Source: Loxodes magnus
Taxonomy: Eukaryota > Ciliophora > Karyorelictea > Loxodida > Loxodidae
Direction: 5' to 3'
Assembly (NCBI GenBank): GCA_946699065.1
Contig: CAMPDV010000088.1
Coordinates: 310,001-374,000, forward strand
DNA: 64,000 nucleotides
Both the position numbers and the translations under genes were made by a program. The number at the start of each line of letters is the position of its first letter. Position 1 is the stretch's first letter. Shown one piece after another: positions 15,224 to 48,800 of the stretch. The notes below the pieces were generated by a model. The model saw only the letters and a program-made list of their open reading frames with translations. It was not told the DNA's origin and searched no databases.

Positions 15224-15261
15224 AATTGATACTCTTATTTAAAATAAAACTTTTATAAAAG

Positions 15262-19896: not shown

Positions 19897-20220
19897 GAAG
19901 CAATTATAATACAGTAGTCTTGATTCTTTCTACAATTAAACTTTAATTTCGCTCAAATTTAAATATTCTTGCTTAAGTTATTTCTAAAAGCATTTTTTGA
20001 AAGAAATAATTTATTTAACTCTGATTAGATTATAATTTTTATAATTTATCTAAATTTAAATAAAAGCTAGGTGGTAATAATTGTCGTAAAGTGCACTAAG
20101 TTAAATCTGTTTTAGTTTTTAAGTAAGGTAAAGTGTACTAATTGCTAGTAATAGGATTGCTTGTATTCTCTCTTAATTAAATTATTTGTATTTCTAAATC
20201 TTAGGTAACTTTATTCTAAT

Positions 20221-21120: not shown

Positions 21121-23064
21121 ATGAGTATCTCTGGCCAAGAATTCCTTAAACAAGTTGGCTTATATAAGTTCATAAAATTACTAGGTTAAGGAGATCATGG
21201 ATATGTCTATTTAGCGAAAGATTAGTAAAATAAAGATTTTGCAATAAAATATGTTTGATTCAGCCCTTCGGATAAAAGAATCATATTAGCATATTAGAGA
21301 GAAAAATAAAAAATAGATTAGTTGCAGCAGCATATTAATATAGTAAAAACTTTTGAGATAATAGAGACAAAAAATAATCATTATATAGTCATGGAATTTT
21401 GTAATGGAGGAAACTTAAAAGAATATTAAGAAAAATATAATAATAAACTTGATGAAAAGCGTGTTCAGGTATTTGCAGCTCAAATTATTACTGGCCTTAA
21501 GTTTTTAAGAGATAATTAAATTATGCATAGAGATATTAAACCAGAAAAAATTTTACTAAATTATTAGGATTAAGAACTTATTTTAAAAATAAGCGATTTG
21601 GGATTTTCTAGAGCGAAAAAAGATCATGATTTTAATGCAAGCATTTAGCATAACTTTTAATATTCATCTCCTGAAATATTGAATTATCAAGAATATGGCT
21701 ATAAATCAGATTTATGATCATTCGGAGTTATAGTCTACGAAATGCTAGTAGGAGAAGTGCCATACAACGCTAGTTCTCTCTATAACCTTTTAAGTATGAT
21801 GAAGAAAGAACTACCATGAGAAAATTTAGAAATATCAAACTAAGCAAAGGATTTTTTATAAAAAATACTAGTAGTAGATTAGAATTAACGCAAGGATGTT
21901 TATGAAATGTATGAACATTAATGAATTTAAGAAGGATTGAAATCTTAAAATAATATTATTGAGGTGAAGCTTCAAACTTATAAAACAAATTAAGAAATCC
22001 CCTAGGTCAATTCATATTATTCAATAAAATTCGTTGAATATGAATACTCAGAAATATAGCAAAAAAAATGCTCTTAAAACCAAAATAAAAACTAAAGATA
22101 ATTTAAAAAAATTGAAATATCTTCAAATCCACATTTAAATTAATAGCATAACTATAAAAATTCTATAAATAATTAGTAATTCCCTTAACAAAATTCTGAA
22201 GTGCAAAATTTGTTGATTTAAAATCAAAAAATAAATAATCTTCATTTTGAATAAAAAAATATATGATGGTAAGAATAACAAAAATATAATACTAAAGAAA
22301 TAATCTACAATTCGTAAGGTGAAAATATCTAAAATTAAAATGTCTTAAATAAGAATCAGTATGAAAGTTAAGCAAGAAAAACTTAAAATTTTCACAAAAA
22401 TATTTAAGACTAAATAAAATAAATCAGCCTTAAAGAACAAATATAGTCTAATGATTATTAAGATCAATTAACAAATCTAATTAACAAAATAAAAGATTTC
22501 AATAAGAGATGACAAAGCACATAAAATATTGCTTTATTATTTATTTAAATAGTGTAAAAATAATAAAAGCTTAAATAACATTTAATATCTGCTATTTAAA
22601 TATTCTAACTTATCTCTATTTAAATTTATCAAGTCATTTTGTAAGCCTCTTCTCTTATTTAAAAAATTTAAGGAAGCAAGTTGGAAAAATAATTAATAGA
22701 AACTTTTATTGAGAGCATTAAGAAAAGTTTATCAATTTTTTAAGAAACAAATGAAGAAACTAAAAAGTGACGAAAAAAATTCTGATTTTTAACAATCGAC
22801 AATAATTAAATTAGAATTTTTCAAAATTGTGACAAACTTGTACTGTGTGGAGCAATCGACCTTATATTTGACATGGACGCTCTTATAAAAGAATGAGAAA
22901 GAAATTAAAATGACAACAAAGAAAATTTAAGTGAAACGTATAAAGGTAAAAAATATATATTAGAAGAACTAATCAAATTAGAGAGCAATAAAATATTTTA
23001 ATAAGCTCTAAGACAATGCTTAGCAAAAAATACTGAAAAGATGAATTAGCGAGGCTATCACTGA
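21121..23064 (+). CDS. Protein kinase 4, atypical and probably impaired, about 647 aa
   Basis: ATG 21121; the first of two nearby in-frame TGAs is 23062-23064 (the second, 23071-23073). The N-lobe is unrelated in detail to kinase 3 (glycine loop G-Q-G-D-H-G-Y-V-Y, F-A-I-K), while the middle and C-lobe are nearly identical to it. The catalytic loop is H-R-D-I-K-P-E-K (136-143), so the conserved Mg-binding Asn is Lys. D-F-G is D-L-G (159-161), and the C-G-T-P motif of the activation loop is lost although S-P-E remains. D-L-W-S-F-G uses TGA (21715-21717). An N/Q-rich linker and helical C-terminus follow. Likely a pseudokinase or a weak kinase. Confidence 0.8.
21331..21536 (+). repeat. Partner of the 206-bp identical tract in kinase 3
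   Basis: Identical to 18112-18317. Sequence on either side inside the gene is much more diverged, which suggests gene conversion or selection localised to particular segments. Confidence 0.9.
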
Positions 23065-25900: not shown

Positions 25901-25952
25901 GAATTTTATATTTAAGCGGCAATGATTTAAATAGGTTTGAAATTTAAAAAAA

Positions 25953-28095
25953 TAAAATGGATCAGAGGAAAATTGAAAATAAAAGAATAGGAAATTATAT
26001 TTTATAAGAAGTTCTTGGAGAAGGCTAATTTGGCACAGTTTATAAAGCGTTATGCAAAGAAAGCAATCATAAAGGAAACTGAGTTGCTATAAAAAAGATC
26101 TCAAAAAGTAAAATAAATAACTAATAGTAATAAATTTATATATAAGAAAAAGAAAATCAGATAGATCTTTCTAAGCATCCTAATATTGCATAAATTTTTG
26201 AAATGATTAAAACTAATAACAATTGGTACTTTGTAATTGAATTTTGCGACGGAGGAGATTTGAGATCATATTCCAAAAAATATAATAACTAGTTAACAGA
26301 ATAAAAAGCATAAACTATAGCTGCTCAAATTTTAAGTGGACTTAAATATATGAGAGATAAAGAAATTATTCATAGAGATTTAAAACCTGAAAATATTATG
26401 CTTACATCTAAGTATGAATAAGATACTATTAAAATAAGTGACTTTGGCTTGTCTAAAGTTATAAAAAAAGGTGAAGTAACTGAAACAATGTGTGGAACTC
26501 CTCTATATGCCTCTCCTGAAGTTCTTTATGGTGAAAAATATGACTTCAAAGCTGATCTATGGTCATTTGGAGTTATGATATACGAGCTATTAGTAGGAAC
26601 TTTGCCATACAACGCTATTTCCATTACAAGCTTGAAGAAAATGTTTTAAAACAAATTACCTTGGGAAATATTTGAAATATCTGAATAAGCGAAGGATTTC
26701 CTTTAGAAAATACTAGTGGTAGATTAAACATAACGGAAAGATGTCTATGAATTGTACGATCATCCCTGAATATAGCAAGGACTTCAATTAAACTCTCAGC
26801 AATATTAATCTGCATTAGGTTCTATTAATAAGTTCATTTATCAACTTCAAGCATCACAAATATAAGGCAAAAATAATCCAAACGATAAACTATTAAACTA
26901 GAATGAACCTAATTTAATTAAAAATTATATGACTTAATAAAGAAATCCTTAAAACTAAATTTTTGATTTCCTGAAAACTACTGAATTCACTTAAATCGCT
27001 TCTTACTAAAATAATTTCCATCTCCAAAATCAGCCAAATATAGGAAACTAGATTTAGACTGATTATAATAAATTCTAGCTTTTTTAAGTAAATCAATAGT
27101 AGCAGATTAATAATTTTCCTATTAATTATCACTTTGAGAACTAAGATCAGAAAGTAGTTCCTGAACTCCCATAACAGTATTAAAATACTTAGCATGAACC
27201 AAATTAGAATTACTAGTAGTATCCTATAAATATTCAGGCTGCAAGCAACCAAACTAAGTTTAACTACATTCAAAATAAAGATTCAAGCGATACTTATAAT
27301 AAAAGATAGCAATAATAAGAAGATGCCTAATTAAATATTTAAAATGCTTTAAAATATCAATTTCAGTAGAATTTATAAATAGACAAGTAGCATTAAGTAG
27401 CTAATGCAAATTAATAAACTCAAGAATAAAATGAAAAGACTTAATAAGACCAAAAGAATAATTAACTTCTTTTAGAGTAAATAAATAAATCAGTAAATTA
27501 TATAATTTAACATTTGAAAATTAAGCTAAACAAGTGCTAGAAAAGATGTGAAATAGCAAATGAATTTGACTTTATGACTCGAATAGAAACTAATTTAAGT
27601 CCCAAGTTCGAAATAATAGCTATGCAACTATATTTATTCTCTTCTCTTACTATGCATGAAGAAATTTTCAAAATAAGCGTATAATTTTAGAATAATTTAA
27701 ATATCGTAGAAATAGAATAATTTTATAAAGACAATTTGATTTTCTGAATCAATGAAAGTTAGGAATATTTAAAAAAATGATTAAAAGAAGCTAAAAGATT
27801 AAAAGAATAAACATCTTAAAAGCATTTTGAGAATGCAAAAATTTACAAGTTCGAGTAGTTTGAAAATTAATTGATTAATGAGTCGCTTTGTATGGTTGAA
27901 ACTTAGAACGAAATAATAGAAAATTTAATAAAGAAAAATGAAAATTAAGTGAAATAAGGAGAGATTATAAAAAGCCAGAAAACAATTTTGTAGATTTTAC
28001 AGCAAGAAGAATGGAAAGAAACAACAAAAGCAGCTATTAAGAAATTAGATATTTTACTCGATAGCAAATTTAAAAACATATAGTGAGTGGATTTA
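25953..28095. repeat. Left arm of a 2143-bp inverted repeat
   Basis: Its reverse complement is 42562-44704 (coordinates sum to 70657). No mismatch was found in the stretches compared. The arm begins 4 bases before the ATG and ends 9 bases after the TGA of kinase 5, so the duplicated unit is essentially the coding sequence alone. Confidence 0.9.
25957..28086 (+). CDS. Protein kinase 5 (plus-strand copy), catalytically complete, 709 aa
   Basis: The frame is continuous from ATG 25957 to TGA 28084-28086. All catalytic motifs are present: G-E-G-Q-F-G-T-V-Y-K-A, V-A-I-K (preceding Trp by TGA), H-R-D-L-K-P-E-N at 139-146, S-D-F-G-L-S at 161-166, M-C-G-T-P-L-Y-A-S-P-E, D-L-W-S-F-G (TGG), and L-P-W-E. 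A long Q/N-rich linker (about 290-480) is followed by a charged helical domain to the end. The kinase-linker-helical layout and the C-G-T-P-L-Y-x-S-P-E segment recall ULK/ATG1-type kinases, but CAMK-like kinases share parts of this. It is the best-preserved family member and it exists in two copies here. Confidence 0.92.
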
Positions 28096-28290
28096 CTATA
28101 AAAGCTTAGATATTAAATTTTGTATTTTGAAATTAATTAAATTTTATCTTGTAAATCTTAAATTCAATTAATTGTCATTTTAAGTAAGCATATATAAGAA
28201 TATTTCTTAATAAAGCATATATCTTCTATAGAAAGAAACAGTCCAAAATAACAAGTTTAATTTTGAAATAATTTAAAATTCATAAGATAA

Positions 28291-28656
28291 ATGGAGAGCA
28301 AAACTTTAACTATTTTGATTTATGAAATAATTTAGGAATAATGGTAGAACTCATTGAAATAAGTTGCAATCAGTCATTTCAGTTCTATCTTGACAACTAG
28401 AAAATTTTATACAACTTTTTGCTTCGAATATTTGAACTTTTAAATTAAAATCAAATTAAATTAAAACTTTTAAATTTATAGCTAGAAACATTATGATGTT
28501 GAGGATTAATTTCTTGATAATTAATAATTTTAATAACTAAATTAAAATAATTATTAATAGCAAAGTTCTAAATTATAATAATACAAAGAAAAAATTAAAA
28601 GATTCATTATTTCAGCTAATAACTAAAAATAATAATAGAACATAATATTTTAATGA
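28291..28656 (+). CDS. Hypothetical small protein, 121 aa
   Basis: The frame runs from ATG 28291 to TGA 28654-28656. The N-terminal half is mixed, with hydrophobic residues; the C-terminal half is Q-rich with charged residues (Y-K-E-K-I-K-R-F). It lies 204 bases downstream of kinase 5, just outside the inverted repeat. No family recognised. Confidence 0.35.
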
Positions 28657-30856
28657 ATTTTTGGTTCATCATTTTACAATTTTAAATTTGGCGAATTTTA
28701 CAACTTAATTTTTTAAATAGCTTATTTCCTCATAGAAGCTACAGCTACTATTTGTAATCAACTTTCACTCTTTTAATTATATTTTTAATGATAATTATTC
28801 ATTAAATTTAGTTTTTATTACTATCAAGTTTAATCGAAATGATGTAAATTAGAGTTTCTGTACTATAGAAATCTAAGGTAGTCATTCAAAAAAATTAAAG
28901 TAAAAATTCTGAAATATTCTTCTACTCTTTTACTATTTTCAATGCTTATTATTTAAATACAAAACAAATATAATTTTTTAAAATTTTATTCAGTCAACTT
29001 TTAAAATTCACAATTTATTTTGCTCAGAATTTAATTTTTTTCATTCTAAATAGATTTTATAAGAAATGCATGAATGCTACTATTCATAATATAAATTTAT
29101 TTAATTTATTTATTAATGTCATTATTTTCTTACATTAGTAGCTTTTAGAGTAATAATAAATTTTAATTAGTCCTTGATTAAAGAGGTTCAAATCTTTATG
29201 TATATTAAAGCAATAAGGAAATTGAAAGAAGCTAGTAGATGGTAATTTTAAAGTACTTTAATATGATTTTAACTCTTAACTATGCTAATAGGATTAAATG
29301 AAAAGATTAGATAATATAAAAAATAAAAAGGATGTGAATAAGCTAGATTAAGTAATAATGATAGCTTTAAAATAATTTTATATATTTATTATATTTATTA
29401 TATTTATTATATTTATTATATTTATTATATTCATATTTTAATAAAGTTTATTACATTTTACAATTTAAATTTAATAACAAAATTAAAATTAATTTAATTT
29501 AATTTTTTCCCTAAGTTATGTAATATGAATTAAATAATTCAAGTGCTTTTAGTTTAAAAAATCGAATCAAAATAAAATGTACTTTCGGTATTTTTTTATG
29601 AAAAATGAAGTTTGAAAAACTACTAAAAATAAATTTCAAATCTACAATAGCTTTGAATAATTTAATGTCTTATTCCATAAAAAAATATCACTAATAAGTT
29701 AAATGATTTCTCTATTTAACATGGAATTTTGGAAACTTAAATTTGTAGTGAACAACTAATATAATGTACTAAGATTTGTGCTTATATTCAATTTTAATAA
29801 TATTGCTAATAAAGAGGTAGCTTTATTAATAAATCATATTAGTAATTTTAGAGGAATAAAAAATCCCTCTGTGCTTTTTAATAAATTAGTTCTTTATTAA
29901 ATTTGGTTTTGCATGAAAAGTAGTTTTAAAATTCTTTAGTTTATACTAAGAAGAAAATTTAAAAAAATTAAGCGAAGGTTAGGATTTTTGGTTTATAATT
30001 ATAAAATAAAATAAAATAATTTAATATAATTTCTGACATCTTAAAGTTATATTATTTTATCTTTATTTTCTATAGTCTATTATTTTATTTAAAAAAGCTA
30101 TTTTTTAAATTTTAATTATTTTTTATTTTTAGAGCAAAGAATAAATTTTTAAAGGTTTAAAAATTATTAGGTAGCGAGATTATTTTATTCTAAAATTTAA
30201 TTAAATTTTAAATCAAATTTCACTTAAGAATATTAACTCTTGAAATTTTCTCCTAGTGACTTTGGATGAAAATTATTAAAATAATAAACTTTTATTTTTA
30301 GTAAAACTTCAACATAACTAATATCTAAATTTTAGATTTAGTTAGTTGCTAATAAAAATCATTTAATTTTTCTTTTTTGGATGTTTATATATTTTATGAT
30401 ACTCACTGTTTATAAAAGTTTAATTATTAATTAGATCTCATTGAAAAAAAAGTTTATTAATGTTTTAAGTTTAGGATGAGGATCAAGAGTTTACAGTAGG
30501 GTTGGGCAAATTTTATGAAAATGAATTTCTACTTTAAATTGAATTGAAGATATTTCAATTATATAAAAAGAAGATCCCATAAAAGATGCTTTTATTCATC
30601 TAGTAATTTTTAATTATTTTAATCAGATTTATCTACTATTTTTAAAGGTGAATCTTAATATATCTCTATTTTAGATTTAACTAAGTTTTATTAAACAACA
30701 AGTCATACAGATATTAAAGCTTTTATGAATTTATTGTTTATAATATAGGTGTCTCCCATTAAAAAACAAAGGATTAAAATAAATATAAGCATCATATATT
30801 ATATAGATTATTTTAGCAATAATTACTAATTAAAAAAATCTAATAATTGCAAATAC
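28657..30856. other. Gene-poor zone where the main coding strand switches
   Basis: T/A-rich, no motif in any frame. The strongly supported genes from 7.5 to 28.1 kb are on the plus strand and those from 30.9 to 57 kb on the minus strand, so this is the convergent junction. Confidence 0.5.
29380..29432. repeat. 9-bp tandem repeat (tatttatta)n, about six copies
   Basis: A simple tandem array visible directly in the sequence, inside the gene-poor strand-switch zone. Confidence 0.85.
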
Positions 30857-32767
30857 TCAATTAACATTATATCTAACACTTTAATTATCTTAAAATAAAT
30901 AAATTAATTAAATATGGTTTTAATGCTACGTTTATTATATACAATTGGATGTTTTCCTGATTTTATGTTCCAAAAGTTCAGTTGCTTGCTTTAGTAACTT
31001 TTAAATGTTTATATCAATGTCTTCTTAATTGATCTATTCTTAAATAATTTTTTAACTAAAGATAAGATTCAATTTATTATAATTTTAATTGTGCTTACTA
31101 TTTTCGCAAAATAAAATTTCTTTATTAATGGCCAGGAGAAAGTTAACGCTTTTTATTATAATTTCTTGCTCAAGTTAATTAGTCATGATAACTTTTTCTA
31201 AATTTGCAGATTCTCAAAATAAATTTTGAATCAATTTACTAGCTTCTTCTTTACTATTTTTGAAAATATTTTAAACTTCTGCTATCAATTATTTTAACTC
31301 TTGTCTGTGCTAATTTTCATTGATAATGGAATTATTTTTCATTATTAAATTTCAAGACTCCTTGATTAATTTCAGCATAGTAAGAGCTGAAACTTCATAA
31401 ATTAGAATAATAATCATCATGTAAATTTTAAATTACTTATTAATGCTTTAGACATTTTTCACTTATTAAATTATTTTATTTCTGGATTTTTACCTTTATA
31501 TTTAATTTTTTATTTTTCTAATTAATGAAACCATTTCACAAGGGGGGTTAAGTTGTTCAGATTTAATATTCAACTATTATGTTTATAAATTTTAATTTAG
31601 TGGACTTAAGACTGGAGAGTTTTGGGTTCAATTAGAGTTAATATTCTCTTCTTATCTAAAAAAAACCTATTCTTATTAATCGCTATTTTTAAATCTAGGA
31701 GTTTCGATATTTTAGTAATCAAACTCCTTTTTTGGAATATCTAAAAAAAATATAGGCTTTTTAGGCCTTTTTAATTAACTGGTTTATCCAAAGTTTTACT
31801 GCAATTCTGGTTATGATAAATCCTACTGAAGATAATTACTTTAAGCTTTATTTTAGTTTATATTGCTCTATATTAATTGCATTTTATACTAGCTTTACTT
31901 TTCTTAAACTTAATCAAAGCAAGTTTTTAACGCTTACTTGTATTTATAACTAGTCAATTATAGTCCTTGCTTTATTCAAATATGATTGTACATTTCGTAA
32001 ACGTCCTTACGTTTATTCTAATCAACTTACAGAATTTGATCTAAAAATTATTTGCATGGAGGTGATACTTACAGCGATTCTCATATATATTGGCTTTTAG
32101 GAAAGTTTTTCTAATTTAAAAATAAATGAAGGGCTCTAGGTTCCGATCCAGTTAGCATTTAAAGAACTATAAATCCAAACGATCATAAATCAGTCTTGTA
32201 ATCAAAGGGATCTGAATTTGTAATCTAAGGAGATGAATAAAAGGAGTTTTCTACGTTGAATACATTTTATTATTTTTGACTATTTAACGAAAAAGAGAAT
32301 TCGCTTATTTTATAAGTTAGTTAATTATACTCATTAGTTATTAAAATGTTTTCAGGTCTTAGGTTTCTATGAATGATATTCCTATCTCTCATATACTTAA
32401 GTCCACTAAGAATTTGCACAGCTATAAATTAAACTAATCCTTCTTATAGTCCCGCTTATTTACTTTTCAATTAAGAACTTAAATTTCCTTCTTCGCAAAA
32501 ATCCATAATTAAGTAAAAGTTATTTTATGTCTTTTCTATTTAGCGAATTTTTAATATATTAGGATGATTTTAAACTTCACTTTAGTTAGTAAGCTCCTGA
32601 TCGAATAATTTTTCTCATTCTAAAGCATAATTCTTACAGATAAAGTGATTGATTTAAAGTTTTTAATTACTTTTTTATTTCTAAGCTACTTTATAAGTAG
32701 TTACTATTTAATCAGATCCCATCTTTTCTTCTATCTCAAACTCTTTTAGGAAGTTATCAGTCTACAT
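30857..32767 (-). CDS. Pseudokinase 6, strongly degenerate, 636 aa
   Basis: The frame is continuous from ATG 32767 to TGA 30859-30857; motifs at 32371, 31987, 31534 and 31378 all fall in it. The glycine loop is unrecognisable and there is no V-A-I-K lysine. The catalytic loop is H-R-N-L-R-P-E-N (133-140), D-F-G is E-F-S, and A-P-E/S-P-E is S-P-Q. Yet H-P-N-I, F-C-E-E-G-N-L, D-L-W-S-F-G (TGA for Trp) and the C-lobe R-K-D-V-Y-E-M-Y-N-H survive, as do the Q-rich linker and the helical C-terminus aligned with kinase 5. An undamaged frame over 636 codons with lost catalysis suggests retention as a noncatalytic protein, though recent decay is possible. Confidence 0.82.
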
Positions 32768-33152
32768 TTTTTATCTTGAATTACTGTTTAATCTTTTAAA
32801 AGCTATTTACAATATAAAATGTTTTCTTTCACAATTTTAGTACCTTAATTTTAAATTCTAACTAAAAATTCAAATATTACATTCAAATATACTATAAAAA
32901 GAGAAATAAAGTAGTAAATTATTTTGATATAAGCAGAATAGTAAATTACGAATGAATATATAACAGAGTAATATCTGGATTCACAATAATTGCTTCTATT
33001 CATAATAATTGATTTTACATAATAGTTAATTTCTATCCATAATTTTATTATTATATAATTGGTTAGGTTTACGAGCATTATATGTTTAAATCTGAGCTTT
33101 AAATTTTTATTTTTATTATATATTTATAAAACTGGATGAAATTTAAATTCAA

Positions 33153-33980
33153 ATGGCAACATTTAAAAAGGTATTATATGAAATATGTGTTTAAATAGTT
33201 TAAAAATATAAGCAAAAGATTAGTTTTATAAAAAATGGTAACCTAAAAAATAGCAGACTCTATCCAATAAAACATAAAAAATAACCAGATTTTTCTAGAG
33301 ATTTATATTAGCTACAATTGAAGGATTAGAAAATTTGCAGAAGAAGTTTAAGTTCTTAAATACTCAATTTAATTTCTTATGATAAAAGTTAACAAGTTGA
33401 TAAATGATTAGAACCCATAGCAAAAACTTAACTAATAGACTACTTCTTAAGAGATGGGAAGGTGGATTAATCTAATTGAAAGAAGTTTAAAATAAAATTT
33501 TTTCAAGAGAATCAGTTAGCAGAACATACCTAGCTCAACTAGCAATCTGATCCAGTGAAAATTATAGAATTCGTACTTTAGCTACTCCTCTTAAAAAGAA
33601 AAAAAAATTTAACATTGCAATAAATATGGAATCAAGGTAAAATAGTGATTTAGATAGCAATAAAATTAAGAAACAAAAAAGAAGTATTTAAAACCTTTTT
33701 TTAGATCTATTGCTCGCTTAGCTGAAAATTCTATTAGAAAAAAATTTCAGCCATATTTAGAAGTTCCTAAATCTTAGATGACCTAAGAAGAATTGAGAAT
33801 TAAAATATGGCATTTATTTTCAAGCATAAAAGAGTAAAAGCAAGCGAATCATAAGAATTTATGACCCTGAAAAACCAGAGGGATATGACATTAAAACATA
33901 CTGATGATGAAAGACTTCTTCAAATTTTAATTCGTGGTAAAGCAAAAAAGTTGATGCAACGTTTTATATATAGTAATAAT
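33153..33980 (+). pseudogene. Possible transposase-derived remnant (piggyBac-like motif), frames broken
   Basis: A frame from ATG 33153 is open with plausible composition, but better-looking segments lie in the other plus frames. One holds a Y-L-E-V-P-K-S-Q-M-T-Q-E-E-L segment near 33755-33800. Another, at about 33857-33905, reads R-I-Y-D-P-E-K-P-E-G-Y-D-I-K-T-Y, resembling the Y-x-P-x-K-P...I-K-x-W block of piggyBac/PiggyMac transposases, followed by three consecutive TGA codons. The catalytic Asp triad is not demonstrated. I treat it as a decayed or intron-split transposase candidate. Confidence 0.3.
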
Positions 33981-34845
33981 AATGATAATTATTTTTAATT
34001 AAACTTATATTATTTTTATTTTGAATTTAAATAGATTATATTGCATTTTTAATAATCTTTTAGAAATATTTAAAATTAAATTTATTATTTATTAATTTTT
34101 ACATTTTATATAACTTATTTCCCATTTTTTATATTTTTAAAGCATATAACAATTTATTTATATCTTAATAAATTATTTTTTAAGTTTTATAATGTTTTAT
34201 TTTAATATTTTAATATTAGAAAAGCTGTGATTCAAATATCACAAATATAAAAATAATAGTTATAGATTTACTATAATTTAAACATTTAATTAACTTCTTT
34301 TTATTTGAAGTATATCAATGAAAATCTATTTTTAATGAAAAATTAGATAGATTAAATTTTTTTTTTTTCCGGAAAAAAGAAAATTATAACTCATAAAATA
34401 ATTTTTAACTTAATTTAATTAAATGTAAAAAATAAGGCTATAATTTAAAAATACATTTCTATTTTTATTTATTTGCTTAATAAACCATTTAAATTTTATT
34501 TTTCTAGCATAATTACAATAAAGTTATTATAATTAAAATTCAATTTTGGCTTGATTTTTTACGTTCTCTTTTAATTTTTTAAGTAATTTTTTAAAATTTA
34601 AATTTTACTAATTTGCTAAAATTTATTAGCTTAAGGTTTTTTAATTTTAAGTATTAAAATACCTAGTTATGTTATTAATGTATATTCCTAAGATTTTATT
34701 CTTTTTATTTCTAGTATTTTTAACAAAAATATTTTATTCATTAAAACAAAATAAAAATTATTTAGTGCTAGCTTGATATTTTATTTATATAACTAAAACT
34801 AAAAATAGTATTAAAAAGAAGATCATATAAATAAAATAAGTAAAT
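33981..34845. other. AT-rich spacer, nothing recognised
   Basis: Very T/A-rich with homopolymer runs; no motif or repeat family recognised. Confidence 0.5.
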
Positions 34846-35880
34846 ATGATTATAGAGAGTGTAGCACCTCGTTTGGGCGCAACTCTTTCAATATTAATAT
34901 TTAATAATAAAAAAATTGTTCTCATACTTCTTGTTATCGGTCTATTTGCCCAATTAGTCATGTCAACTTCTCCAAATGGGAAATCTACTTATTCAAAAAT
35001 TCTTGAGACCCAAATCAAATTTTCCAGTCTTCTTAAATAAGATCCAAATAAGAATTAGCAATTTAGTTAGTAGGCATATTAATAAAACTTTCATACTGCT
35101 AGCAAGAACTCTCAGGCAAGTTAGGCTTATCTCTTCCTAGCTTGTTCATCCTTCTCCGTGGTGGCATCTAGTGCGAGATTACTTTCAATGCAGTATAAAC
35201 TATACTAGATTACCTACTAGTTCTTCTGAATACAATCTACAGCCATATTTTTATTATAATAAATATATTGCATAAAAATTAAAAATAAATTCTAATTAGT
35301 GCTTCATCTTCATCTTAATCTTAGAACTTGGTTACCTTTATTTATTTTTATTATAAGATATATATTATTAAATAGTTGTTCGAAGGTGAGCAACAAGGTC
35401 ATCTTCATCAGAGGTTGGGGAAGTGAAGTACCCATAATCGACTTTATGTCTTCCTCTGGTTTGGTTTGGCCTCGAGACATAAGATTCTTAGACCTTCGGC
35501 ACTGGCTTAGTTTAGCTTTAATTCTGGAACAAAAAAGGAATAATATTGCGAGCTTCATCAGAGGTGGGGAATTTAAGTACCCATAATTGATACATGTCGT
35601 CCTCTGCTTTGGTGATGCAATGAGACGCAATCCTGCCATGTCCTTGGACCTCCAACAAGTATTAAAGATTACGAGTATTCTTAAATTATATCAGTATTGA
35701 ACATTTTTATCAATACTGAATAATTATACCAGTATTGAACGAGGTCTACCAGTATCTGATAATTTTATCAGTAACAAACATTCTCGTCAGTATGAAACAT
35801 TTTTTTTAAAGAGATGCGCACCAATGAGAGTGCTACGCGCTCTATAATAAAATTTATTTATTTATAATAATTAATTTTAT
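34846..35880. mobile_element. About 1.03-kb GC-elevated element bounded by inverted copies of the dispersed repeat
   Basis: The left end (34848-34905) carries the repeat in minus orientation and the right end (35809-35880) in plus orientation, giving imperfect inverted ends of about 40 bases that start with the same ttatagag bases. The left half (34846-35260) is homologous in reverse orientation to 51333-51740. The right half contains a unit near 35400-35480 that recurs at 35550-35630 and at 37025-37100. It looks like a nonautonomous TIR element or two opposed insertions. No transposase is inside it, and target-site duplication could not be established. Confidence 0.6.
35686..35800 (+). repeat. 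Short tandem repeats of about 20-28 bp inside the element
   Basis: Variants of a unit centred on atcagtattgaac follow one another about five times between the coding-like part and the right-end repeat. Confidence 0.7.
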
Positions 35881-36120
35881 TTAATTTGCAGTTAGGAATT
35901 ATAAAAAAGTTGGAATTTGTGTATATTATGTTAGTGTTTAGATTATTACATTGCATTTATTAATAAAGACTATTTTTATATAGAATTTATATTAAAATAG
36001 CTTATTTAGAAAATTTAAAGAGCTTGGGAATTAATAAATGAATTATTTATAAAAAATGGAGTATTTTATTCGTCTCTCAAAGAATTAACTAAGAAATTTA
36101 AGAAGAAAATTGCGAAAAAA

Positions 36121-37000
36121 ATGCAGAAAATTAAACATTAGCGAGAAAAATTATCCTAATCTTCCAAAGGAAAAAGTTATGATCAGATCCGTTGAATTTA
36201 ATAACCTGAGAATGAAGCTGATTAAAAACTACAAAACCAGATAGATTAAATTAAAAATTAATCTAAAAATATGAAGAAAAATTAAATTAAAGGGAAAAAT
36301 GAGCCAATTAATAAAAACATCGAATATCAAAATAATGAATTATTAATAATTCATCGGTAGCTATTCTAAATAGCGTAGATAAAGAATAATAACTATACTA
36401 ACATTCACAATTGATACTAATCAAAACAAAAAATGGCTATAGAAAATGAATAAGTTAAAATTATTTATCAAGAAATAAAATAAGATGAAAATATTGATTC
36501 AAATTTATAAAAGATAATATAATTACTAGAAAAAAATTCAGAAAAAGATAAAGAAAAATTAGATCAAAAGTTTCTGGTACTGCAAAATAATATTTTAATA
36601 CAATGCTGGGCCTAAAAAACTTAAGTCAAGAAAACAATAAAAAACGGAAAGATGCTGAAATACATCTGAATAACTGAAAAAGGAATCTATAAATAGAAAA
36701 TTCTACTAGAACTTAAGATAATTATTAGTGATAATCTACCACATATAAAAAAATTTTAGTATTTATTCACGTTAAAAAATGGCAGAAGATTCTGGTTAAA
36801 AGTCTAAAGAAAGCTAAAATCTTTATTTTTTAAATATATTCTTATTTTTATTATTATATAATTTAATTTAAATAGGGTGGAAAGCCTTCTTCTTCGGATG
36901 CTGCTTGGAGGCCCAGCAAGGCAACTAAAAAAATGAGCGCGGACGGAGAATAAATCGGAAGAAGAGAAGTCGGTGGTGGGGGAAGGAAGATGCGACAAGT
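36121..37000 (+). CDS. Putative mobile-element ORF, Lys/Glu/Gln-rich
   Basis: A single plus frame from ATG 36121 (open from about 36001) stays continuous with clear protein composition to about 36810 (for example E-K-N-S-E-K-D-K-E-K-L-D-Q-K-F). It then runs into the GC-elevated island at 36880-37110 and the terminal repeat at 37174 without a TGA. The arrangement ORF-island-repeat is the same as at 50456-51760. There is no recognised domain. Its 3' end cannot be fixed because no TGA occurs before the repeat. Confidence 0.45.
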
Positions 37001-37173
37001 TGGATTACTCTGAATGCATGGAAATTTTCTTCATCATAGGTCGGGGAAATGTACCCGTAATCGCATATTGCATCCTATGCTTTGGAAGGAAAAATTATAG
37101 GGACGTATTGAAGGAAGAGAAAACAAGGTAGAGAGACCAATAAAATATTTTCTCTACATTAAATAAAATTAAT

Positions 37174-37250
37174 TTAAAGAGCTGCGCACCAAAGAGAATT
37201 TTACGCTCTCTATAATCGAATTTATTTATTTATGATAATTAATTTTTAAT
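37174..37250 (+). repeat. Dispersed terminal repeat, plus orientation
   Basis: Matches the consensus aaagagctgcgcacca...ctctataat followed by a T/A-rich tail beginning aatttatttattta. It ends the GC-elevated island. Confidence 0.8.
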
Positions 37251-37847
37251 AAAGTAGGATTTTATCTAAAAGCCAAATAAATTTTATTTTTAGATTTTAA
37301 TTATTAAATCAATTTTTATAATGTTAAATAAAAATAACTTACAATAAAATTATAATGACCAAATAATTAATATTATTATTCGTAATTCATTTTAGCCTCA
37401 TTAAAAAGCAAAATCCTTATGTAAGGCACATTATTATTCAAATTAATCTAAAATAATTATTAATAAAAACTTTCAGAGTATTTTTCCTACAAAAAAATAG
37501 TAAAATAAAAGTATAAAATAAAATTTTTCCATTTTATAAAAAATATTCCATAAATAGTCATTTTAAGATTAAGGGATAAATTAGAAAAATTAAACTAGCT
37601 AATATTTATAATCTTTTGAATATTATAAAATATTTATAATTTTTTAAATGATATATATTTATAATATGAATAAATAAATTATTATATTTTATTCTCATTT
37701 TATTTTATTCAATTTATGCGTTAAAATGCTAAACATATATATTAAATAAAATTTATTTAATATTGATAAAAATTTTTATTAATTGTAATTATTAGATTAT
37801 TTCATACAGAGACTAATATAATTATATAAAAAGACTTCAATAATATA

Positions 37848-37920
37848 GTGCTGCACACCATTGAGGTGCTATGCGAATTAAATTAAAGTTTTTTTTAATA
37901 ATAATAATTAGTTTTTAATT
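37848..37920 (+). repeat. Diverged copy of the dispersed terminal repeat
   Basis: Core gctgcacaccattgaggtgc matches the consensus. The right arm has decayed; the A/T-rich tail is present. It is not next to a GC-elevated island. Confidence 0.6.
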
Positions 37921-38019
37921 AAATAAGCTAAAAACTAAAATTATTAATATTTTAATATAGATATTTTTAATTAAAATTAGTAATTAAATTTATTTATTTT
38001 TAAGTTTTTATCTCTCTCA

Positions 38020-39700
38020 AGATAATTTGTCCTATTTTATTTTTTTTAATTTATATAAAGGATACAGTTAAGTATCCCTTGCTGAATACATAGAAATATA
38101 TTTAATTCTGTCAAAAAGAACGGGAATCATTGAATGGAAATTATTATCCATACTCCTTGAAATTCTTAAAATCAAATTTAACAGTATTTTATTAATTACT
38201 CTGTTATCATTTATAATTATGATTTCTTTATATAAGCAAATCATGCTGATGCATTACTTGCTTCTCTTGAAAAATTTCTACTATTCTATTTCCAATTGCT
38301 TGTTATAGCATTATAATTATATAAATGATTTAGAACTCTTAAATTATATCCTCCAAATGTAAATATAGTTTATTAAACATAACAATTTCTATTAATACAT
38401 ATTTTAAGCAGATGGGTATCTATGCTATTTATATTTATATAATTTTTTACATTAAAGCTTTCGCTATTTATAATGTAGCCGTCCTAATAATTACAACCTT
38501 CTACAGCATGAATATTTTATTAATTGTAGTAAGTTAGAGAAGGGCATGTTTTATAATACCTTAAATTGAACTTTTCAATTATGGTTTCATTAATTTTATA
38601 TATGTTGCTCATGTGAGTTTTATTATTTCTTGCTTCTCCCATAATATTTAATAAATCGTCAATCTATTAAGAAAATGTTCCATCCTCATATATTTTTCCA
38701 AAAGAAGCCAAGCTTTTTTAAGAGAAAGCTATATTGAGCAAATCAAATTTGTATTTGATATCACTTCTTCATTTTATTCTTTATCAGCTATTATATAAAT
38801 AATAGGGTTACATCTTTGGTTCTGCAAATTTCAATTAAATTTAAGAATTAATTTACTCTTTTATCTATCTTCTTACTATATCTAATTGTCTGATTATAAA
38901 ATCTATTCCTTTAATTAATCTTTATCTTCTAATCATTCTTAATCTTTCTAATATAGGTAAAATTTTTCTTCTTCTAAGACATAAATTTAATTATCTTTCT
39001 TAATTTTATTAATTTAAACCTTTTGTTTTTTTTCTTGTTTTCATTAATTAATAAATGATATAATTATCCTTTTAATTTTATAATTAATTCTATTTATCAA
39101 TTTATTATTTACTTAAATTGTCTTTAATTTCGATTAAGTTTTATAATATTCTTTTATATGCTTTAGTCATATGTTTTAATAGCTCAATTATTTAATAGAT
39201 TTTCTATTTTTTTATTTACTCAAATTGAATATTTATTTATGCCCTTATTTATTCCTTTCTACGAGATATTCTTTTTTCTAACTTCAGAGATAATTTATTT
39301 TTTTAATGCTAGTTTATTATCTATACTTATGCAAAATTTGAGGTATCTAGTGAATATTTCATTGCTTCCTAAGCTATTATTGCAATAATTCTTGTTGGCT
39401 TAAATTTTCTAGTGAAAGTAGTAATTCTTTAGCTATATTGCTTTAATAATTATTAGAATACCTAAAATGCTTTAAATCTTCTATTCACTTATTCGTTACC
39501 AAGTCATTTTTGCATATTCTAATCTTTTTAAAAACCTAAGCTTTACTTTCAAACAACTTTTACAATAAAAACATCCACAATCTAGTTGTCTTAGAATTTA
39601 AATATTTTCATCAAATACATTTTAGTATCCTTCACTTTAAGATTTTTAATTTTCAAATCTTAAAATACTAGCTGCTAAGATACCCTGCAAGAGCAAAATA
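38020..39700 (-). CDS. RING-like / coiled-coil / Kelch protein, with frame changes; ends approximate
   Basis: Near 39550-39585 is a RING-style block D-C-G-C-F-Y-C-K-S-C. Downstream, in another frame, a coiled coil (L-E-K-R-I-S-R-R-K-E-Q-I-R-A-Q at about 39230-39280) and then Kelch blades (T-I-F-T-F-G-G-Y-N at 38330-38360, with a following W) share one continuous frame for about 1 kb. A final Kelch-like stretch lies in a further frame after about 38290. Candidate short GT-AG introns (23 to 29 bases around the RING block, 25 bases near 38290) would explain some changes, but none is proven. RING-coil-Kelch layouts resemble ubiquitin ligase adaptors; an E3 role is inferred. Confidence 0.6.
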
Positions 39701-40732
39701 GAATAGGTTTAAAAAAAGTTTAGAGTTTCTAATTATTTTAATATTACTTTCTTTAATATAACTTCAATTAAAAATTATTACTTTGATGCTACTTTTGTCT
39801 ATAAGCTTTTGAATAAAAGCTTAGAAACTTTTAAAGCAATTTAGTTACAATAAAATAAATAGAGTTTATCTTTATTTTAGCCCTTAAATTTAACTGTCTT
39901 AAATAATTTAAAAGCTAAATTTTTATTAGATTCTTCTAAATTTTTCTTTCATCAATGAAGAATTAATAATTATGCAAGTTGAATAAATCTAAAATTTATT
40001 TAGTAAAATCTAGTTGCTACTATTTATTATTAGTTGAATAAAAATAAAACTTGCAAGTAGGAATATCTTGGAAAGAAATGTAAAAATATAAGAACATACT
40101 AAACAATTATATATTTTATTGGTTTTAGTTTATTTTAAGTCACTCCTAAAAAGCTTTTCATCTACAAAACTTTAATAAATGAATGGCTTGAAATATAAAA
40201 TTTTTAAATATCTCATTGAGGAAGTTTATCATTTAAAGCAAATCTTATTCTCATAAATTAAATTTTGGAAAGAAAATATTTTGAAACATAATTTTAATTT
40301 TGAAGCAAGGTTATAATTACAATTATTTATCCATATAATTTAAGATTATCATAGATCTTTATGAAAAACTAACGATTTTTCTATAAATTAATAGTAATAT
40401 GGATTGTAGAAGATTATGATAGAAACTAACAATATTTAAGCAAACTTATTTCCAACTAATCCTTTAAATTATATACTTATTTAATCCTTAACTATTTTTA
40501 AATTATTAATCATAATCATATTAAGCATCTTTTAATTAGATTTTTATAATTTATTCAAATAAAATTATTTTTATCTATTTCTTATCTTTTCAAACTATTT
40601 TTGGGGAACTTTATATCTAAATATTTTCTTGATTTATAACTAGAAAGTTTTGCTCTAAAGAATAATTAGAATGATGCTTTTATATAAAAGTTAATATTAT
40701 ATTTATTAAATATTATAGATGTAAAATTCATA
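39701..40732. other. Intergenic, no gene supported
   Basis: A minus frame is open through much of it, but composition is poor in Glu/Asp/Gly and no motif is visible; it could contain the 5' part of the preceding RING/Kelch gene. Confidence 0.35.
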
Positions 40733-41683
40733 TCATTTTAACGAACTTCTCAGCTCTCTCCACCTTCCATTTCTTAAATCATAACTAAATAAAACACATT
40801 TTCAGTTAAATTGAAAAACACGAAATCCGCTTAACACTGGTTATGTATAAACTTAGCCTTTAGAATATTTTTCCCCTTAAACTTAAAAGGACTTAAAATC
40901 AAATGTTTGAGTTTCAATTTCTGACGCATTTGCGTAAATAAGAAAGGATTTTACATGAGGTACAAACAATGCAGTAGTTTGGGCTTTTAAGTTCAGATTT
41001 TTTTCGCTCAATTTTCATTCGTCAAGTCCACAATCATAAACTTGAATTCGGTCCTAATCTTACTTAAATTTCCAATTATATCCTCCAAAGACTCATATAT
41101 TTTGATTAATAAAGTCACATCCAAATTAGTGAACTGAGTTTATGATTGGCTTGATACTAATAAAGTCTTAGGTACTTAGATTAAACAATTCACAGTCCTA
41201 AACATCCTATCATTCAAAATTCCAGCCAGCAATACCAGAAATAATGTAAATTTTATCTCTTTTATTGAACTTAGTTCTATGAAGACTTCTTTTATTTATC
41301 ATTTAATGCTATAATAGTCCTATATGTTAATATCATAAGTTAAATCTTTTCTAGAAAAATTGCCTTCCACCCGAAATTACCAATCCTTATTCTGCTATTT
41401 GTTCAATTTGAGTTTAAAGATCATCAGTCTACTACATTTACAAAGTTTACTCTTCAAACTTCTTAGTAGATATTTTGTAACTCTTAACTTTGCTTGAATT
41501 AGTGTATATAGAGCAAATATTTTTGAACTGCTTTCTTGGTGTTAAATTAGAGCAAATTTCATACTTAATAACTCCAATCCCAAACTTACCAATTAATCTA
41601 GAGCCACTCATATTACTAGATTTCCTTATGAACTTCCTTATAAATAAAATTTTAGCTACTTAATTTAATTTTTCCTTCAGCAT
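40733..41683 (-). CDS. Kelch-repeat protein, 316 aa
   Basis: The frame is continuous from ATG 41683 to TGA 40735-40733. Kelch blades are seen as G-L-V-I-S-G-G-R, I-Y-I-I-S-G-I-A-G-W, and N-I-W-V-F-G-G-Y-N-W followed by V-Y-D-C-G-L-D-E-W, with a last L-R-N-G-R-W-R-E-L strand. The Trp of N-F-E-W, N-I-W-V and D-E-W are encoded by TGA, which supports the code assignment. There is no RING or other catalytic domain. It is likely a small beta-propeller binding protein. It lies on the same strand as the RING/Kelch gene at 38.0-39.7 kb and could be a relative of it. Confidence 0.8.
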
Positions 41684-42561
41684 TTTTATCTTTAGTTTTC
41701 TTTTAAATAAGATCTACAACTTAGAAGCAACAATTTATATAGTTAGAAAAGAGATTAGTAGAAAGCCATGAATAGCATTATGCATAAAGAGATTAAAACA
41801 AGCTAAGATATGATAACTAGTGCTAAAAGCAGATCATAGCACATTGAGAGATTATTTTTGATAATTAACATGCTAGAAATCTCTTTTATAGCGTGCTAGC
41901 TAATAACTAACATTCATTAGATTAGTCATTTAAAAGTTCTTATCTTTATTTTATAATAAAAGTTCATGAGGATTGAAGCTAGGAAATAAAAATTGATAGA
42001 AAGTATGAAGTCAATAAAATAAAAGGAAAAATTATACCTAAAATTAATTAAAAATTAATAGTAAAGTTAATACTAGCAAGACTTTAGCTATTTATTTAAT
42101 AAAAATATTTTCAATTTTTATTTTTAATTTATATGAAAGGAAATAGCAAAGAGATTTGCATTAAGATATAATATATAATTATAAAAGCTAATTAGTTTTA
42201 TATTTAATTTATAGGAAGAAATCTAACAAATATTGTTATTCTTTCTATTAATTTTACTAAAAAAAATCAAAAAAAAGATTGAAGAAAAATATTTTTGACT
42301 GAGTAGTAGATTCTTTATTTGATTTAGCATTCATAACAAATATTCTATGCTTATGATGATCTAAATCATTAATTTTAGAATACAGTTAAATAATTTTATA
42401 ATTAGTATATTTAAATTTAAAAAATAAAGATATAAATACTTTAATATATTTACTTTTATAATTTTTAAAAGAATTTAAAAATTAGAAAATTTAAGACACA
42501 AAAATAGCTTTATCACATGCTTAAATTATAATTAATATTAATTATAATAATACTTATTTAA
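41684..42561. other. Intergenic, no gene supported
   Basis: AT-rich spacer between the Kelch gene and the inverted-repeat arm. No motif recognised. Confidence 0.45.
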
Positions 42562-44704
42562 TAAATCCACTCACTATATGTTTTTAAATTTGCTATCGAG
42601 TAAAATATCTAATTTCTTAATAGCTGCTTTTGTTGTTTCTTTCCATTCTTCTTGCTGTAAAATCTACAAAATTGTTTTCTGGCTTTTTATAATCTCTCCT
42701 TATTTCACTTAATTTTCATTTTTCTTTATTAAATTTTCTATTATTTCGTTCAAAGTTTCAACCATACAAAGCGACTCATTAATCAATTAATTTTCAAACT
42801 ACTCGAACTTGTAAATTTTTGCATTCTCAAAATGCTTTTAAGATGTTTATTCTTTTAATCTTTTAGCTTCTTTTAATCATTTTTTTAAATATTCCTAACT
42901 TTCATTGATTCAGAAAATCAAATTGTCTTTATAAAATTATTCTATTTCTACGATATTTAAATAATTCTAAAATTATACGCTTATTTTGAAAATTTCTTCA
43001 TGCATAGTAAGAGAAGAGAATAAATATAGTTGCATAGCTATTATTTCGAACTTGGGACTTAAATTAGTTTCTATTCGAGTCATAAAGTCAAATTCATTTG
43101 CTATTTCACATCTTTTCTAGCACTTGTTTAGCTTAATTTTCAAATGCTAAATTATATAATTTACTGATTTATTTATTTACTCTAAAAGAAGTTAATTATT
43201 CTTTTGGTCTTATTAAGTCTTTTCATTTTATTCTTGAGTTTATTAATTTGCATTAGCTACTTAATGCTACTTGTCTATTTATAAATTCTACTGAAATTGA
43301 TATTTTAAAGCATTTTAAATATTTAATTAGGCATCTTCTTATTATTGCTATCTTTTATTATAAGTATCGCTTGAATCTTTATTTTGAATGTAGTTAAACT
43401 TAGTTTGGTTGTTTGCAGCCTGAATATTTATAGGATACTACTAGTAATTCTAATTTGGTTCATGCTAAGTATTTAAATACTGTTATGGGAGTTCAGGAAC
43501 TACTTTCTGATCTTAGTTCTCAAAGTGATAATTAATAGGAAAATTATTAATCTGCTACTATTGATTTACTTAAAAAAGCTAGAATTTATTATAATCAGTC
43601 TAAATCTAGTTTCCTATATTTGGCTGATTTTGGAGATGGAAATTATTTGAGTAAGAAGCGATTTAAGTGAATTCAGTAGTTTTCTGGAAATCAAAAATTT
43701 AGTTTTAAGGATTTCTTTATTAAGTCATATAATTTTTAATTAAATTAGGTTCATTCTAGTTTAATAGTTTATCGTTTGGATTATTTTTGCCTTATATTTG
43801 TGATGCTTGAAGTTGATAAATGAACTTATTAATAGAACCTAATGCAGATTAATATTGCTGAGAGTTTAATTGAAGTCCTTGCTATATTCAGGGATGATCG
43901 TACAATTCATAGACATCTTTCCGTTATGTTTAATCTACCACTAGTATTTTCTAAAGGAAATCCTTCGCTTATTCAGATATTTCAAATATTTCCCAAGGTA
44001 ATTTGTTTTAAAACATTTTCTTCAAGCTTGTAATGGAAATAGCGTTGTATGGCAAAGTTCCTACTAATAGCTCGTATATCATAACTCCAAATGACCATAG
44101 ATCAGCTTTGAAGTCATATTTTTCACCATAAAGAACTTCAGGAGAGGCATATAAAGGAGTTCCACACATTGTTTCAGTTACTTCACCTTTTTTTATAACT
44201 TTAGACAAGCCAAAGTCACTTATTTTAATAGTATCTTATTCATACTTAGATGTAAGCATAATATTTTCAGGTTTTAAATCTCTATGAATAATTTCTTTAT
44301 CTCTCATATATTTAAGTCCACTTAAAATTTGAGCAGCTATAGTTTATGCTTTTTATTCTGTTAACTAGTTATTATATTTTTTGGAATATGATCTCAAATC
44401 TCCTCCGTCGCAAAATTCAATTACAAAGTACCAATTGTTATTAGTTTTAATCATTTCAAAAATTTATGCAATATTAGGATGCTTAGAAAGATCTATCTGA
44501 TTTTCTTTTTCTTATATATAAATTTATTACTATTAGTTATTTATTTTACTTTTTGAGATCTTTTTTATAGCAACTCAGTTTCCTTTATGATTGCTTTCTT
44601 TGCATAACGCTTTATAAACTGTGCCAAATTAGCCTTCTCCAAGAACTTCTTATAAAATATAATTTCCTATTCTTTTATTTTCAATTTTTCTCTGATCCAT
44701 TTTA
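42562..44704. repeat. Right arm of the 2143-bp inverted repeat
   Basis: Reverse complement of 25953-28095. Flanking sequence diverges immediately on both sides (first mismatches at 42561 and 44705). Confidence 0.9.
42571..44700 (-). CDS. Protein kinase 5 (minus-strand copy), 709 aa
   Basis: Start ATG at 44700 and stop TGA at 42573-42571, mirroring the gene at 25957. The protein is expected to be identical: G-E-G-Q-F-G loop, H-R-D-L-K-P-E-N, D-F-G-L-S, C-G-T-P-L-Y-A-S-P-E, Q/N-rich linker and helical C-terminus. Upstream and downstream sequences differ from those of the other copy, so the two would have independent flanking regulation. The identity with unrelated flanks points to very recent duplication or ongoing gene conversion, or to an assembly artefact. 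Confidence 0.9.
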
Positions 44705-45866
44705 CTATCTAAATATAAAGCATTTTTCCTCTTCTTTTGAAGAAAAATTACAATTTTTAACTAACTAGAAAATTAATAGGTTTATTTCATGTCTTTAAAT
44801 AGGGTTTACTTAGAAATTATTTTAAAATCAAAATTTTTTTATAATATCGAAATAATTAACCTCAACTTGATCTTCACAAAAACTAAAAAATATTTATTAT
44901 AAAAATAAAATAAAATACTTTTGTATATTTGTCACCCTCTCTTATTTTTTATTTAAAATCTTTATAAAATAATTATTATTTCTAAACTTTTAATTTCTTA
45001 AAATTTTCTTTTATTAGTGGTAAAATCTTTGGTATAATTTAATTTTAATGAGTTCAATATCAATTTTTTCATTTCATTTCATTTAAGTTTGAGTTTTGAA
45101 TATTATCTAACTATTCTAATACTTCAATATCCTTTTACTAAGTTCTATTCTATTTATTATTTCTTAAAAACCTTAAGAGTTATTACTTGGTTAAATTTCA
45201 TATATAATGTAAATATAATTGTTTGAATTCAATTTTTTTGATTATAACTAATATGATATTTTTCATCTTTTCTTGCTTAAATTTTATTAATTTTTATTTT
45301 TAAATACCTTAATTAAGTTTTTTATTTGATGTAATATTTCTATGTATCGATTTATCTAGCTATCACAGGTTAGTTTACCTTTAATTACTTTGATTATGCT
45401 TCTTTTGTATGCTAAAGTATATAAATTCTTATTTTATATTAAATTAATTATGGACTTTTCATATCTCTTTTCATTTCAATTTTATACTTAACCAAAATTT
45501 CTCATAAAAGGTTATTTGAAATAATTAAGCATCTAATCACTCAAAATCTCGATTTATCTACTTTAAAATAAGAATAAAAGTAAACTATTATATTTAATAT
45601 ATTTAATAAATATAAGCATATGTTTAATATTTTCCTTTTCTATCATAAATTTCTCCTTTGTTTTTAATTATAGCCTTATTTAAAATTTAACGCTTGCTTT
45701 ACCTTATTAATAAAACCTTAATATAGCATTTATTTCATATGGATTAAATTTAATATTAAAGTTAGCTTTTAAATTATTTTAACATAATATAATTATCTAA
45801 AAGGTTTGACTGTTTTAAACTAATTATATAAATTTATTTAATTCTAGCTCCATTGCTTAAATCGCT
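44705..45866. other. Intergenic, no gene supported
   Basis: T-rich. It should contain the upstream region of the minus-strand kinase copy, but no conserved regulatory motif shared with the region upstream of 25957 is visible. Confidence 0.45.
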
Positions 45867-48800
45867 TCATTAATGCTTATTAATTTCATTTTTAAATTAA
45901 ATTTTTATTTTATCTAACTTTGCTTTGATGTATTAACTTATTTTTGTGATTGTTAAATTAAAGATTTATGAAATTCCTACTAAAGTTCTTTTAAGTTTTA
46001 TTTAATGCATCTTTTGGATTGAATTAAATGATTTAGATTTAAAAAAAGGTAAACAGCTTATAAAATGACTTAGATTTATAAATTAAGAGTGTGATAGATT
46101 AAAAGTTATTTCCTACTCATCTTTAGATTTCTGCTATTTCTCCGCTTTTTTCAATCCTTCATAATTATATTTTTTGGCTTAGCCCATTAGTATTTATTGA
46201 TTTTGACTAGTGTTTATGTTAGTTATAATTTAGCTTTCTATAGAATGAGAGCAAATATATTCAGATTCACTATTACTGATGAACTATTATTTTTAGGGGC
46301 TAATTTGCTTTTTATCCATGCTAAGTATAAAATTATTTATTTCATGGTTTTCTTCAGTAGCTATTCTTGCTTTTGAGCCTTTAACCCTTATAAAAGAGTG
46401 CTAATCTTAAAGTTTCTCTCTTAGCTTTTATTAATCTTCATACTCTTCACTTTCTTAATCTATCGAGTCTTCTAAGTTTTAAAGTAATAAAGCTCTTGAA
46501 ATTTTAATTCTTTCGTTCTATAATTTTACATGGTTAGCTAGAATTTCAGCCTTAACATTTCATTTAAAAGCAAACCTAAAGAGACTCTCTAAGTCAGGCT
46601 TTATTTACTTTAGAAAGGTTCTTTAACTCTTCAAAAATAGCAAACCCATCAATACTATCAAAAATACTCCAACAACATAAATTATTTAAATTGCCAGTTT
46701 TACTTGTTCACTTCTATTTAAAGATATAGCAACCATTGCTGTGGTAAATGAAGTTAGTAGAAAGAATATGAACTAAATTCAATTTAATTTTAGGTAAGTT
46801 AGAGGCTTTTTAAGCAAGACTATACTCGCAAAAATAGAGAAGAGAATAGAATAGACAATAGCATGAATCATGGGATAAAAATGCTTTAGCATCTGACTTA
46901 AAATTACTGCTATAATCTGCATCGAGCTTTTAGCAATTATGTATCATGATTGCTGCTTTAAGTGCAAAGTATCTCCTTATAATATTTATCAATGAGGACG
47001 CACTAAAATTACTAAGGGAATATAAAGCATCAAAGAGAAACTTGATAAGACCACAGTCTTAATATGAATTTTTGAAAGGCATTGCATCGAACAGTCTAAA
47101 TCTAAAAAACTTTCTTTTAACTCAATTTTTTGGTTGAAATTGCTATCTCTCCCATAGCTACATTTAAAAATTTAAGTTAGAATAAATAAAATAGGCATGA
47201 TAGATATTTCTGTTAAGAAAGGAGAAAAGGTATAAGATAAGCTTCCTAGCTTTTTTAGAACTTAGTTTTTCTTGCATTTCACTTCTATTTAGTATAAGAA
47301 AGATATAATTAAAACTACTACCAAAAATGCAAAAGAGATACAGATAAAACAGCTTACCCAAAAAACAGAATTACTCAGTTTTATATGAATGAAGTCTAGA
47401 GAGATAAATGATATTATTTATGCCAGTATTGGTGGAAATAAATTTTCCAAGTCAGATCCTATTGAAACAAATTACAGAAACTAAATGATCATTATACATA
47501 TAAACATTTAATCTTCACTACTCATTCATACTTCTCTATCTAGAACTGGATAATTTATACCTTTCCAAATTTTAAGGCCAAATATCGTTACTAAGAAAGT
47601 TACTAAAATTATAAATCCTGAAGTTAGAAACATTGCGTCAAATCCCGACTAATAGATTTTAAGTCTTCTAACTGAGATGTCACAATCATCACTGAATTTA
47701 TCAAAAGAGTCTTTAGGTATGTTAGTTGTGTTGTCATTTCAAATTGGATTAGTTTTTATAAATTTTCATACAATTGAACAAGTTGGGCAATACTCTAAAT
47801 AGGGAACAAGATGTAAGTTTCCTTACCAGTCGTAAATATTATTCACAAAGTTCAGATTTAAATTATCTCTAAAATTAAGAGTTCTTTGAAATTTAACAGT
47901 GCCACTATACCCTGTAAATTTGGAGTTTCTTATAATAGAAGCTAAATTATTAAAATTATAATAATCTTAACCTTAGTCAATGCACTTTTTAATTCCATTT
48001 GCTATAATTAAAGGCTATTCTACATAATAACTTGAAGATATTGGAATTTCTGGCTAGCACTTTTCTATTGCTTATTTAGCTCTCTAACCTTCTTCTCCTA
48101 CATACTCAACAGGAGTTATAGTAATAGATCCATGCATTATTCTTCTAATTTTGTTCTTCTATTCTATATCTAGAGATCCACTTTCAATAACATTAGCTGT
48201 TCACAAAGTTATAAAAGTAACATCTCCTTTTTCTCATCCAAGTTCAACTAGTTTATTAATAATCATATTAATAAAATAAATAGCAGGATATGCTAAAGCT
48301 ATCTTAATTTCCTTTTGCATAATTTGATATGCAATATCTTCATAATAAGATACATTTTTAAATACACTCACCTTCGCAAAGGTAGTTTGATTAGAATTTA
48401 AAATCCTTTTATTGCTATTATAAGCTCATTATTTTATTTAATTATGTATCTTTTCATTTGCAGGTTCGAATTTATCAAAAAACAAGCCAAAGTTGTTTCA
48501 ATTGTTTCTCTCGATGTATTTAATATACATATCTCCAAAAAACTATCAGGAGATATAGTTATCAAATACATTTCTGAATTTTTCTTCTTCTTTTAATTCA
48601 TCTTCTCTGGTTTATATTATAAAGGGAATGCCTGTACTTATTTACTATAAAACATAATAAGCAGGTAGCCAGCTTAGTATAACAAAGCTAGACATATGAG
48701 CAATTCCAATATTTTGATAATTATCCATAAAGGCTATTAATGTTGCGTTTATATTGCCTGTTAATCCCCCATATGAAAGCTTATGCTCTTTTAGTTTTTA

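Follow-up and report, generated by a model that had tools for sequence, protein, structure and literature searches.

How could two kinase genes in opposite orientation come to share practically their whole coding sequence and nothing on either side of it? The question is raised by a 64,000-nucleotide stretch of the Loxodes magnus genome (contig CAMPDV010000088.1, here C88, positions 310001-374000), which we call the window and whose own positions are used unless a contig is named. The two genes, E (25957-28086, plus strand) and E' (42571-44700, minus strand), start approximately 19 kb apart within one kinase cluster and make up the one long inverted repeat in the window (arms 25944-28104 and 42553-44713, 99% complementarity). 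Aligning E from 25953 to 28095 (plus) with E' from 44704 to 42562 (minus) gives a tract of 2143 nt with no gaps or indels and nine substitutions; a preliminary description of this DNA had reported two apparently identical kinase genes, and while the inverted pair stands, the identity does not. The borders are exactly those described: homology begins with the 4 nt TAAA before the ATG (25957 in E, 44700 in E') and ends 9 nt (GTGGATTTA) after the TGA (28084-28086 and 42573-42571, respectively). We looked for longer homology past these borders, but the flanks aligned no better than shuffled sequence, with a score of 34 for the 5' flanks (matched in 179 of 200 single-base shuffles) and of 42 for the 3' flanks (matched in 52 of 200). 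As the earlier reader had proposed, flanking DNA was not carried along, and ordinary segmental duplication was rejected on this ground. Chance as the source of the likeness was weighed against the sequence and is likewise unsupported.

The reading frames of both genes contain TAA, TAG, and TGA codons, and translation with table 27 (TAA and TAG as glutamine, TGA as tryptophan or stop), the code given for the 706-Mbp L. magnus macronuclear assembly (PMC11441545), yields a single frame of 709 codons plus a TGA stop in each. In-frame TGA is found at codons 42, 271, 597, 608, and 710, the last of which we took as the stop. In Loxodes, UGA acts as a stop only close to the poly-A tail. Judged from its sequence, the product is a serine/threonine kinase with a glutamine-rich C-terminal half: the Pfam search, done on E' as the twin of E, matched Pkinase (E=1.7e-66), the motifs VAIKK, HRDLKPEN, and DFGLS are unbroken in both genes, and the closest solved relatives (best 60 of 2750) are CDPK and AMPK. 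Three of the nine differences are synonymous and six alter the protein, a ratio that fits the neutral expectation by sites (P of six or fewer nonsynonymous = 0.25, with 80.6% of sites nonsynonymous); the kinase domain (codons 12-275) holds one of the nine (P of one or fewer = 0.10). Both genes read through in one frame, which is still compatible with an intron of 3n length, and an apparent lack of introns is uninformative because the relatives read here are also single-frame.

We then asked how many copies exist and which site is older. The genome-wide count that the preliminary description had proposed, made with the tract against the whole assembly (705,730,643 bases in 7843 contigs), returned at least 41 matches (102 candidates, 40 scored); among the matches listed, E and E' are the only two at 99-100%, and the other 39 lie at 66-75%. 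A decayed kinase copy, E'', is located about 142 kb away at C88:497.2-498.5k; compared with E', it lacks the gene's 5' part as well as the sequence directly upstream. Its surroundings are collinear with, and inverted relative to, both sides of E' (C88:493.6-497.1k against 360.0-355.2k and 498.3-503.6k against 352.8-347.9k, with pieces at 69-77%), so that the block 37899-50004 (minus) corresponds to C88:493578-503562. The match extends outward to C88:490.0k, or window position 56210, although the outermost part, at 79%, fits two other places on C88 slightly better (82-83%). Because the surroundings of E'' match both flanks of E', the E' locus is, on this comparison, an old one that is still intact, and there was no net inversion between E and E'. 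Searching both E flanks across the assembly recovered neither an empty E site nor a second copy of these flanks: the 17 and 39 matches, self included, were otherwise short repeats (best 57 and 69 bits). Given an old E' locus and E flanks without a second copy, we took E as the recipient. Divergence between E and E' is 0.42%, which can be set against presumed haplotigs in the stretches compared (contig C355 differs from C178 or C7735 by 0.5-1.5%, and C178 from C7735 by 0.07-0.27%); the event is therefore about as young as haplotype differences.

The pair most likely arose by DNA gene conversion in which the coding part of one gene was copied over that of the other, a reading that we hold with moderate confidence. 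It is the best supported because other linked paralogs, on C88 and on other contigs, have conversion-like tracts inside their coding sequences. Kinases C and D of the same array share a region (18070-18717 and 21289-21936, both plus) that is 90.5% identical across 650 columns, patchy within, and falls to approximately 43-63% per block outside. An abrupt-edged identity tract within diverged homologous sequence is present for C/D and for three further kinase pairs, K403/K408, P/Q, and X/Z; permutations as extreme numbered 0 of 2000 for each of the first three and 1 of 2000 for X/Z. In an otubain gene (407-2281, Pfam C65), a tract internal to the coding sequence (986-1813, plus) differs from C88:298148-298975 at 34 of 828 nt (95.9% identity), with 41-70% per block on either side. 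By sequence this pair looks like the kinase tracts, and the process thus seems not to be confined to kinases.

For E and E' themselves, conversion is argued by analogy with these pairs, because a complete conversion wipes out its own evidence; the two genes have nothing homologous outside the tract. The preliminary description had offered conversion confined to the coding region alongside capture through an mRNA or a cassette, and of the three it is the best supported, with the analogy just described carrying it for this pair. E and E' are linked paralogs in a serine/threonine kinase gene cluster, and a DNA break would have been repaired by non-crossover gene conversion with the other gene as template, such that the coding sequence of E' (44700-42571, minus) replaced that of an array gene already resident at 25957 (plus). 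The copied tract would have ended near the start and stop codons, where homology ended, the flanks having diverged much earlier. We infer three elements of this scheme, namely a kinase resident at E beforehand, transfer from E' to E, and a DNA template.

Several observations weigh against conversion as the source of the pair. A first, narrower permutation test supported K403/K408 but left P/Q (224 of 2000) and X/Z (276 of 2000) unsupported. The tracts of C/D, K403/K408, P/Q, and the otubain pair are all shorter than 1 kb and end within the coding sequence. No trace of a resident gene was found when the E flanks were compared with those of nine kinases, E' included: using shuffles of two-base blocks and start positions that for several paralogs are estimates, no similarity was convincing, and the best case, the 5' flank of C, was equaled in 9 of 500 dinucleotide shuffles before correction for nine comparisons. 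Blastn alignments of E with the remaining array paralogs of the window are limited to the kinase-domain part, and the resident gene would therefore have had to be closer to E' over its full length than any of them. Finally, the evidence comes from one genome assembly.

A DNA duplication of coding size is also possible for E and E', although we regard it as rather unlikely. Template switching during replication or repair would have placed an inverted copy of E' at E, with breakpoints falling by chance near the ends of the coding sequence. The failure to find an empty E site or a second copy of its flanks accords with such an event, and in two other linked kinase pairs the shared tract has the size of a gene, lies between unrelated flanks, and is less tightly bounded: X/Y, which starts 305 nt upstream of the ATG and reaches approximately 25-35 nt past the stop, and c1/c2, which runs from about the ATG to well beyond the presumed stop. 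Duplicates limited to the open reading frame (ORF) and without flank homology are documented in Caenorhabditis elegans (PMC3966223), and the fit to the coding sequence is partly a selection effect, the pair having been picked as the most striking. Yet duplication requires chance breakpoints 4 and 9 nt from the ends of the coding sequence, and it leaves the internal tracts of the other pairs unexplained, for which conversion is needed regardless. An assembly artifact, with either locus created by a misjoin, is very improbable. The arrangement of P and Q does vary among contigs of this assembly (C355 versus C178 and C7735), but E and E' differ at nine sites and have different flanks on one 899-kb contig, the repeat measures just 2.1 kb and the assembly was built from PacBio circular consensus reads (PMC11441545), and the arrangement at E' is independently confirmed by the surroundings of E''.

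Capture through an mRNA, as first suggested, fared poorly. A processed retrocopy, in which E' mRNA was reverse transcribed by the machinery of long interspersed nuclear elements (LINEs) and inserted at E, would suit a genome with approximately 2,700 reverse-transcriptase domain copies and many LINEs, and with short 3' untranslated regions (UTRs; mean 53, median 41) and 5'-UTRs that the authors assume to be short (PMC11441545), since an mRNA copy would then end near the coding sequence. At the 3' borders, however, no poly-A was found (within some 100 nt, A runs reached at most 4 at E and 3 at E'), a result to be read with the facts that a longest run of 4 or less occurs in 1121 of 2000 random 104-nt stretches, that no established L. 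magnus retrocopy served as a positive control, and that local LINEs may not leave poly-A. An abutting target duplication was also not found, the longest direct repeat near the E borders being 9 nt and not abutting (9 nt or more occurs at 64 of 2000 random positions) and that near the E' borders 5 nt. A 3'-UTR of 9 nt would be short, and in a genome of 706 Mb the proposed copy sits just 19 kb from its source, within the same kinase cluster; we thus consider a retrocopy improbable. Nothing resembling a cassette was seen at the borders, though recombination sites were not searched for specifically. A somewhat more remote variant is that conversion templated by cDNA or mRNA, with reverse transcriptase acting at a homologous gene, may overwrite paralog coding bodies in Loxodes. 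It was considered because LINE reverse transcriptase is abundant, 3'-UTRs are short, and UGA terminates translation only when the poly-A tail is near; promoters and 3' ends would then remain local while coding bodies move as units, and the UGA rule would make retaining the local 3' end important.

Homogenization of inverted pairs limited to coding sequence is already known from Drosophila Amylase, and gene conversion of this sort is described for some fly gene pairs. The Amy-p/Amy-d genes form a palindromic pair with coding-limited concerted evolution to which E and E' can be likened, but that case was shown by comparing species whereas ours comes from one genome, and the E/E' cluster differs in having further paralogs and genes about 19 kb apart from start to start (PMC3924832). 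Insect Hsp70 genes likewise include inverted linked pairs that undergo conversion and whose homogeneity drops away from the coding sequence; their homogenized blocks take in 5' flank (less than 200 bp in one fly species, more than 650 bp in another), compared to only 4 nt here (PMC3071340, PMC3924832). In Caenorhabditis, the same ambiguity arises where coding regions are nearly identical but their flanks have little homology, since conversion and ORF-limited duplication account for this equally, and surviving tracts cluster at approximately 50-200 nt (range 12-2,958), against 2,143 nt for E/E' (PMC3966223). In open-licence PMC text, we found no paper containing both "Loxodes" and "gene conversion". 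If conversion did produce the pair, exchange between linked genes would keep multigene families of a karyorelict ciliate similar, gene trees and duplication ages of such families would mislead, and coding bodies would evolve apart from promoters and 3' ends, this last consequence being relevant to a code that reads UGA as a stop only toward the end of the mRNA.

The window holds seven related kinases, five on the plus strand (7.6k, 10.8k, 17.9k, 21.1k, and 26.0k) and two on the minus strand (31.8-32.7k and 42.6-44.7k). Besides E and E', their homologous parts lie at 7553-9184 (A), 10849-12219 (B), 17908-19026 (C), and 21148-21942 (D), all plus, and at 31823-32734 (K342, minus). Among the kinases on other contigs, P and Q are inverted in C355:182-198k and direct in C178:515-531k and C7735:24-41k; these contigs are 98.5-99.9% identical in the stretches compared, and the difference is either an inversion between haplotypes or an assembly fault. 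In the wider neighborhood (C88:290-444k, assembled from the window and adjoining sequence), an old inverted duplication has arms of approximately 20 kb with kinase genes on both and otubain-like sequence at the outer ends; its left arm, 1304-20728 (plus), matches C88:421789-401280 (311.3-330.7k against 421.8-401.3k) at 69-75% in pieces. A direct repeat of 8.2 kb at 98.9% identity (C88:364028-372181 and 385304-393473, the first copy starting at window position 54028) is an ordinary recent segmental duplication, and with the old inverted one it indicates that DNA-level duplication is common in this neighborhood. A gene at 54526-55935 (minus) combines an ATPase domain of the histidine-kinase type (Pfam HATPase_c) with a response-regulator receiver domain (Pfam Response_reg). 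Lastly, a 0.84-kb repeat, 97% identical between C88:307607-308448 and 508144-508983, is probably part of a LINE; its translation contains what we take to be a zinc-knuckle-like stretch.
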